64,000 nt of DNA, taken from the IMG/VR virus record IMGVR_UViG_3300040960_001631, positions 55,998 through 119,997 of that record; one strand, given 5' to 3'. How positions within the stretch are numbered: the first letter of the stretch is position 1; each line of letters opens with the position of its first letter. The stretch is from a virus. Of the stretch, positions 59,239 through 60,418 are shown piece by piece. The notes beneath the pieces were generated by a model. It worked only from the letters and a program-made list of their open reading frames with translations, was not told where the DNA came from and did not search any database. Made by a program: the position numbers and the translations under genes.

Positions 59239-59250
59239 TTATATGTCAAA
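59229..59250 (+). repeat. Promoter-start repeat, copy 1 (radical SAM)
   Basis: A 22-nt string containing GATAAGTA (59230-59237), 5 nt, then the ATG at 59243 and its first codons is identical to 60429-60450, exactly 1,200 nt downstream. GATAAGTA is a variant late motif. Only 5 nt separate it from the ATG, so leaderless translation is predicted. Confidence 0.75.
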
Positions 59251-60418
59251 TTACTATTTTAAAGAGACTGATCTTAATCCTTTGTATAATGAAGTTTCAT
59301 CTTTTTTAGAAGAAACTGTTTCATTATGCCATGTATGTTACAAGCACCTACCTGCATTAAAGTACGAAAAGAATGGAAAATTATATCTTGTAAAATACTG
59401 CCAGGATCACGGCATACACCATTATGTTATAGAAAATGATATAGACTTTTATCAAAGTTTGAACTGTGAATATGTGCCGCCCTGGGATTTCAACGGGGGC
59501 GTTATGATTGAAGGAAGTGACAGATGCAATTTAGATTGTCCTCATTGCTATCATATACCTAATAATAAACTAAAAGATCCTGCACAAGAATTATTAATGT
59601 CACAAATTGCACATATTGAATCTAAATTAAGATGGCCGGGGGATCCTTTTTGGGTAGTTCTACTAGCAGGTGCCGAACCTACATTAAGGAAAGATTTTTC
59701 ATACCTATTAGAAAGAATAAAAACAGAATATAATAATACTATACAATGCTATGTAATGTCCAATGGCATAAAATTTGAGGACATGAACTTTGTAAAATCC
59801 TCAAAATCTGCAGGGCTAGATAATGTTTGCTTTGGTTTAAATCATCCTACTTACAATAATAATATGATAATTAGAAACAAACAAGAACGTGCAGTATACA
59901 ATATTCTAGAAGAAGGATTAGGTTTACATTATCTTAGTTATACCATGAATAACTTTAATGAATTAAATGATATCATGGAAGAAATTTTGTACAAGGGATG
60001 GACACCTACTCACTTTAGAATTCGTTACGGAAGTGATATTGGTAGAAACACAGGACAAGAGAGATTGTTTTTAAGCGATGTCTTTAAAGGTGTAAAAAAA
60101 TGGTGTCAAGATAATAATAAAAGTTTCGAAGTTGTCGAACCTGCAGACAATAACATATACCATATCATGGTAAAAGTAGAAAACAAATACATCAGGTTAA
60201 TCCAGTGGTGTGACGAATACGATATTGATATGGAGAGTTTAAAGTCAGGTCCGTGGAGTAATTTTACACCAGGTCCTATAACTAACTTTTTAAATCAAAT
60301 CATTAGAAGAAATGCGTGGAAAAATAAAGGATTACCTCTTTTAGACAGTCCGCCAGAAAGATATCAAATTAGACAGATACCTATAACCGATAAGTTAGAT
60401 CTTAAAAAATTAATATAA
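59243..60418 (+). CDS. Radical SAM enzyme, Tes/MJ0619-like N-terminus
   Basis: 391 aa. The N-terminal small domain has Cys29-x2-Cys32 ... Cys53-x2-His56-Gly (CHVC, KYCQDHG), and the SAM core has CX3CX2C: CNLDCPHC (Cys95, 99, 102), with AGAEP (142-146) as the glycine-rich SAM motif. The combination of a C-x2-C...C-x2-HG segment with the core resembles the archaeal MJ0619/Tes (tetraether synthase) group and related radical SAM methyl- or alkyl-transferases. It contains further clustered Cys positions near the C-terminus (WCDEYDID). The reaction is unknown; lipid or glycan modification is possible. It sits between SGNH and terL and shares an identical promoter with terL. Confidence 0.8.
   Translation: MSNYYFKETDLNPLYNEVSSFLEETVSLCHVCYKHLPALKYEKNGKLYLVKYCQDHGIHHYVIENDIDFYQSLNCEYVPPWDFNGGVMIEGSDRCNLDCPHCYHIPNNKLKDPAQELLMSQIAHIESKLRWPGDPFWVVLLAGAEPTLRKDFSYLLERIKTEYNNTIQCYVMSNGIKFEDMNFVKSSKSAGLDNVCFGLNHPTYNNNMIIRNKQERAVYNILEEGLGLHYLSYTMNNFNELNDIMEEILYKGWTPTHFRIRYGSDIGRNTGQERLFLSDVFKGVKKWCQDNNKSFEVVEPADNNIYHIMVKVENKYIRLIQWCDEYDIDMESLKSGPWSNFTPGPITNFLNQIIRRNAWKNKGLPLLDSPPERYQIRQIPITDKLDLKKLI

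Follow-up and report, generated by a model that had tools for sequence, protein, structure and literature searches.

An Apparently Virus-Borne Radical-SAM Family With a Tes-Type Rubredoxin-Like Domain and a Single-Cluster Core

Introduction

Tes (tetraether lipid synthase; MJ0619, GDGT-MAS; PDB 7TOL/7TOM) is an archaeal radical-SAM enzyme that cross-links lipids and whose characterization answered a long-standing question of lipid biochemistry. It contains a rubredoxin-type iron site, C9X2C12X20C33X2H36, and carries two further [4Fe-4S] clusters, one in the N-terminal and one in the C-terminal domain (PMC9433317). Its C-C bond is formed by way of a substrate-sulfur bond on a [4Fe-4S] cluster, which was attributed to the C-terminal one, and an earlier assignment of MJ0619 to methyl transfer was not corroborated in the same study. 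Homologs of unknown role were also reported from organisms that make no such lipids (PMC9433317). In phages, radical-SAM cassettes have been described in the host-recognition islands of pelagimyophages, which are hypervariable (PMC7029224). There, radical-SAM genes are inserted in the tail-fibre islands of marine T4-like phages; no family or mechanism is given, and these cassettes are likened to the family presented here by description only.

Here, a radical-SAM gene of a jumbo-type, T4-like phage is compared with these systems. The gene lies in a stretch of 64,000 nucleotides from IMG/VR record IMGVR_UViG_3300040960_001631 (the window, to which all coordinates refer; Table 1). Proteins that combine a Tes-type N-terminal domain with a one-cluster core proved common among uncultured phages and were absent from the annotated phage records that were searched.

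Table 1. Features of the radical-SAM locus in the window.
Feature	Position	Strand	Basis or remark
Probable rho-independent terminator, AATAGGACCTTCGGGTCCTATTTTTTT	58464..58490	+	Read directly from the sequence; hairpin with TTCG loop
SGNH-like hydrolase gene	58504..59238	+	4 bp upstream of the radical-SAM gene
Radical-SAM gene	59243..60418	+	Encodes 391 aa; belongs to the apparently virus-borne family
Rubredoxin/zinc-ribbon-like N-terminal domain, aa 20-64	59300..59434	+	PF23545, 7e-12
Radical-SAM barrel, aa 86-262	59498..60028	+	PF04055, 2.5e-11; AF2 strands; Foldseek to 7TOL
C-terminal region, aa 263-391	60029..60415	+	Family-specific motifs; no invariant Cys
Terminase large subunit gene (terL, gp17-like)	60443..62023	+	PF03237/PF17289; 25 bp downstream of the radical-SAM gene

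Domain Architecture and Conservation

In Pfam, the N-terminal domain matches the HMPTM zinc ribbon (PF23545; 45.1 bits against a cut-off of 27, E 7.4e-12) and the barrel matches the radical-SAM family (PF04055; 44.4 against 29.5). The original prediction had named Cys29, Cys32, Cys53 and His56 followed by a CX3CX2C motif, and all were found where they had been placed. The four ligands form a C-X2-C-X20-C-X2-H pattern (59327-59410), and the radical-SAM motif is C95-X3-C99-X2-C102 (59525-59548). The barrel also contains GAEPT (143-147) and NG (174-175), while the motifs of the phage family in the C-terminal region are IG(R), N-x-Y-H, I-x-W and GPW..F. A chance Cys pattern was ruled out by conservation and by shuffling of residues 1-90, in which C-X2-C-X20-C-X2-H arose in 3 of 20,000 shuffles. 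The six Cys are kept at 98-100% and H56 at 97% in a set of 90 unique full-length homologs, and 24 columns are invariant in the 43 family sequences under 80% identity. The dN/dS ratio against the relative L001 is about 0.046, which denotes strong purifying selection; together with the absence of stops, it rules out a decaying gene.

An AlphaFold2 model built from the 43-sequence alignment reached a mean pLDDT of 92.8 and a pTM of 0.92. In this model, the conserved residues near the strand ends and barrel mouth are polar. Conserved residues of the family include N200, H201, Y204, T234, R261, R268, N304, H307 and W322. What sequence or model establishes is a rubredoxin-like domain of the Tes type for a mononuclear metal, a radical-SAM barrel with one [4Fe-4S] site, and a C-terminal region that is particular to the family and has no auxiliary clusters.

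Comparison With Tes and Other Radical-SAM Enzymes

The spacing of the rubredoxin-type site is identical in Tes and the phage protein, and the radical-SAM core is common to both. Tes was the sole relevant match of the single phage protein among PDB sequences (1e-17) and came first in a PDB profile search with the family (8e-34 over profile positions 5-201). With the AF2 model as query, Foldseek likewise placed Tes first (7TOL; E 8e-17, TM 0.68), followed by MoaA (6e-9, TM 0.44) and then by SPASM enzymes (~1e-6) and viperin. MoaA and viperin were among the next matches in the profile search as well. The Tes/MJ0619-type N-terminal domain that had been proposed for this protein is real. Since the best match is Tes, with that domain included, the outcome named as a refutation, a generic SPASM enzyme as best structural match, did not occur. 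A SPASM peptide maturase is ruled out on motif and fold: there is no Pfam SPASM match and no conserved C-terminal Cys, and the SPASM/Twitch fold matches reach an E of only ~1e-6.

The phage protein is about 100 residues shorter than Tes, has a different C-terminal region with conserved polar residues, and lacks both auxiliary [4Fe-4S] clusters. Across the 90 homologs no conserved Cys was found between aa 56 and 95 that could stand for the N-terminal auxiliary cluster (C73, C77, C80 and a His in Tes), and in 7TOL this segment is an insertion relative to the family profile. Likewise, no invariant Cys follows C102 in these homologs for the C-terminal cluster; the best later column has Cys at 78% and is Ser in this phage protein. 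The NCBIfam Tes model (NF045702) gave 71 bits against a curated cut-off of 450. The phage protein, on its sequence, is not a Tes, membership being ruled out by the two missing defining clusters, and because the C-terminal region does not match that of Tes-like bacterial proteins and its conserved residues are polar, it is probably not a lipid cross-linker either. One of the missing clusters is catalytic in Tes, so the lipid cross-linking first suggested for this gene finds no support. Nor does the methyl transfer suggested with it, which rests on the earlier MJ0619 assignment mentioned above.

Two other groups resemble the phage family. The best NCBIfam match is the TrsS radical SAM (seleno)protein (NF045646, 2.3e-21), which covers the rubredoxin-like and core regions and matches 43 of 43 family members; the score of the phage protein, 76 bits, lies below the cut-off of 490, and it is not filed as TrsS. 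COG1964-like proteins of Omnitrophota and Acidobacteriota (alignment A2) are homologous over aa 20-253 (hhalign 1.6e-38). In contrast to the phage protein, they are ~450 aa long and have extra invariant Cys in the C-terminal part, and the C-terminal regions of the two do not align. As a part of the tentative reading set out below, and graded jointly with it, the family may descend from the Tes/COG1964 group or have its N-terminal domain in common with it.

Distribution of the Family

A protein search of IMG/VR returned three close relatives, all encoded upstream of terL. Scanning IMG/VR with a degenerate CNxxCxHCYH pattern gave at least 119 loci, and every one of the 119 listed encodes a homolog, down to 27% identity. 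Among 50,697 annotated phage records there was no match at 1e-5, the best (E 4e-3) being a generic radical-SAM protein. PHROGs and a BFVD fold search (best TM 0.43) also returned generic radical-SAM matches only. In the tree, all family members fall in one clade (support 100/98).

A search of 11.3 million bacterial and archaeal contigs yielded only three members of full or nearly full length. Of these, L128 is located amid phage genes and L126 and L127 are on short or MAG contigs; one of the three is flanked by the genes of a major head protein and a tail protein. None of 337 alphaproteobacterial genomes, class-mates of Roseibium, had a member at E 1e-45 in a search with G004 as positive control. 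Together, these two results rule out a wide presence in bacteria. The family is large and apparently virus-borne; it is a real, well conserved viral family, of which we found no earlier description. Two full-length paralogs and several more radical-SAM matches occur in one 220,867-base phage record (L075), where one paralog has a B12 radical-SAM and an aminotransferase gene beside it.

Genomic Setting in This Phage

The radical-SAM gene was originally placed among packaging genes, and terL does begin directly downstream (Table 1). This terL matches PA5oct-group phages at 55%. The radical-SAM gene adjoins terL in every window-type relative with a contig long enough to show it, and the gene is absent from PA5oct at the matching place. 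Upstream, the probable terminator would separate a group formed by the SGNH-like gene, the radical-SAM gene and terL from the preceding gene. No exact TATAAATA was found near the radical-SAM gene, and where the sequence beside it was checked by eye there was no gap for a RiPP precursor.

The SGNH-like neighbour noted at the outset does adjoin the radical-SAM gene. Its assignment is weakly supported: it has a GDS/GASN block, a match to DUF6071 (7e-5) below the cut-off and an hhalign E of 3.6e-7 to alignment A9, which holds SGNH-like proteins adjoining other family members. Among the close relatives it is co-located in this genome only and is absent at this place in L001 and L002, so a fixed pairing is not supported in those relatives; elsewhere in the family, other lineages show the pairing again.

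Other genes of the window deserve mention. Two tandem sulfotransferase-like genes (55087-56285, +; phrog_3347) are absent at that place in L001 and L002. Two tandem putative 2OG-Fe(II) oxygenase genes (PF13759; 26536-27781, −) are related to c31, a cluster that occurs in the vicinity of other members of the radical-SAM family. A sugar cassette in the tail region (41103-44049, −) encodes a HAD phosphatase, a cupin, an NAD epimerase and a PfkB-cytidylyltransferase fusion; this combination points to a nucleotide-heptose route.

Neighbourhoods in Other Phages

Neighbours were counted within five genes at the 119 listed loci; as loci from related phages were counted apart, the counts are not independent. 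The commonest neighbours were 2OG/AspH-like genes (59 of 119), a kinase-like protein (46), GNAT (34) and a B12 radical-SAM protein (33). A tail-fibre-like gene (c6) was found at 25 loci, a class III aminotransferase at 22, SGNH-like proteins at 17, SpeD at 14 and a desaturase gene (c16) at 13, and an amidinotransferase-like gene was present in some phages. GNAT was assigned by fold match, the B12 radical-SAM protein by its match to TokK/CysS, and aminotransferase, SpeD and halogenase neighbours by Pfam, while for the 2OG/AspH-like, amidinotransferase, desaturase, c6 and some of the SGNH neighbours the assignment relied in part or in full on inspection by eye. Members of cluster c3, among them L063:7753-9366, are phage B12-dependent radical-SAM proteins with a profile match to TokK of 3.5e-39. 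Cluster c1 matched TTK kinase weakly (1e-4), PDB profile searches with c4 and c2 returned nothing, and a match of c15 to Tako8, by its name a designed protein, was taken as chance. By tblastn, none of the island enzymes c1, c3, c4 and c5 was found in the 120 kb record of the present phage, which is incomplete.

The gene itself occurs at varied places. In a Magnetospirillum prophage-like region it is flanked by the genes of the major head protein and a tail protein. In L090 its neighbours are an NlpC/P60-like protein on one side and the central tail fibre on the other, and in L030, L043 and L117 it lies with ThyX, ribonucleotide reductase and primase. Other phages have it in islands that also hold GNAT, 2OG-oxygenase-like, B12-radical-SAM, aminotransferase and SpeD genes.

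A Cellular Sister Family

Proteins of Roseibium/Labrenzia, Bdellovibrionales and Acidobacteria (A3) share with the phage family both the radical-SAM core and the C-terminal region (hhalign 4e-31 over aa 81-339, with the G-x-x-GR and W motifs in both). They are ~300 aa long and differ in having no rubredoxin-like domain. In the tree A3 is the sister of the phage clade, on long branches and from few genomes. The A3 gene of Roseibium and Labrenzia is preceded by a GNAT-like gene and a small protein, which in Roseibium matches the Asp/Arg hydroxylase family PF05118. A gene for a giant RTX-type protein follows downstream in both, and a similar large protein is encoded in L141; the GNAT and RTX labels at these loci were given by eye. 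This setting, in few genomes, is the best hint that the substrate of the phage enzyme may be a surface protein. Cellular radical-SAM genes adjoin giant RTX-type secreted proteins in L139, L143 and L141, and L143 adds a GNAT-like gene and one for a PF05118 hydroxylase, an arrangement that is possibly a protein-modifying operon.

Possible Function

We tentatively favour, at a little less than even confidence, a one-cluster radical-SAM tailoring enzyme with a polar, phage-made substrate, possibly a surface component. The single [4Fe-4S] cluster would cleave SAM to give a 5'-deoxyadenosyl radical, with the rubredoxin-like site feeding electrons or being structural, and the radical would abstract a hydrogen from the polar substrate, which the conserved residues listed above, W322 among them, would hold in place. 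The product would be a tailored phage-made component, most likely of the virion or cell surface, such as a fibre, another virion protein or a glycan. The enzyme would be made late or together with the virion genes, and in many phages would act alongside further tailoring enzymes; in the present phage it seems to act on its own. As a short and highly conserved protein, it offers a means to probe both the role of the rubredoxin-like site and the radical-tailored substrate of the phage.

The surface or virion part of this reading is supported by the virion-gene settings in unrelated phages (terL, head-tail, NlpC/P60-tail fibre and c6), and the tailoring part from the GNAT, TokK-like B12 radical-SAM and 2OG/AspH-like neighbours. 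That the substrate may be a surface protein is hinted at by the A3 sister, which has the same C-terminal region and lies beside genes for GNAT, for giant RTX-type proteins and for a hydroxylase of PF05118. Domain architecture, constraint (dN/dS and invariant columns) and the single viral clade also argue for it. Against it, the setting varies, and the ThyX and ribonucleotide reductase genes of L030, L043 and L117 fit a nucleotide substrate equally well. Moreover, the incomplete record of the present phage is without c1, c3, c4 and c5, the A3 link rests on long branches and few genomes, and as host-recognition islands are hypervariable (PMC7029224), the neighbours may be incidental. A surface- or glycan-altering role is possible, on indirect evidence. 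It is rather doubtful that the virus-borne family modifies virion proteins or surface glycans in parallel to a bacterial operon of GNAT, Asp/Arg hydroxylase and radical SAM that would act on giant RTX-type secreted proteins; if true, this would be radical-based virion modification of a kind not known before.

An enzyme of nucleotides or small metabolites, taking part for example in DNA-base hypermodification or the synthesis of a nucleotide analogue, is unlikely but deserves attention. MoaA and viperin, which are among the next matches after Tes, are nucleotide enzymes; the similarity to them, however, is confined to the general radical-SAM core. Although ThyX, ribonucleotide reductase and primase are alongside at three loci, and SpeD, aminotransferase or the amidinotransferase-like gene is near in some phages, at most loci nucleotide genes are not nearby, and no base-modification gene set was recognised beside the gene in the window.

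Less probable still is a moron, a solo gene for host benefit or superinfection exclusion at insertion-tolerant junctions of virion operons. The gene does stand solo at varied junctions (on the terL side, between head and tail genes and before the central tail fibre), occurs in a prophage-like region and is missing from PA5oct at the matching place, but its retention beside terL wherever this could be checked in window-type relatives and the long tailoring-enzyme islands that other phages carry speak against this. A Tes-like enzyme that joins or modifies lipid tails in the membrane of the infected host is very improbable: Tes is the best match by sequence and fold, the rubredoxin motif is identical and a desaturase gene is near at some loci, but the bond-forming C-terminal cluster and the N-terminal cluster are missing, the C-terminal region is unrelated to that of the Tes-like bacterial set, the conserved residues at the barrel mouth are polar and the Tes model score is far below its cut-off.
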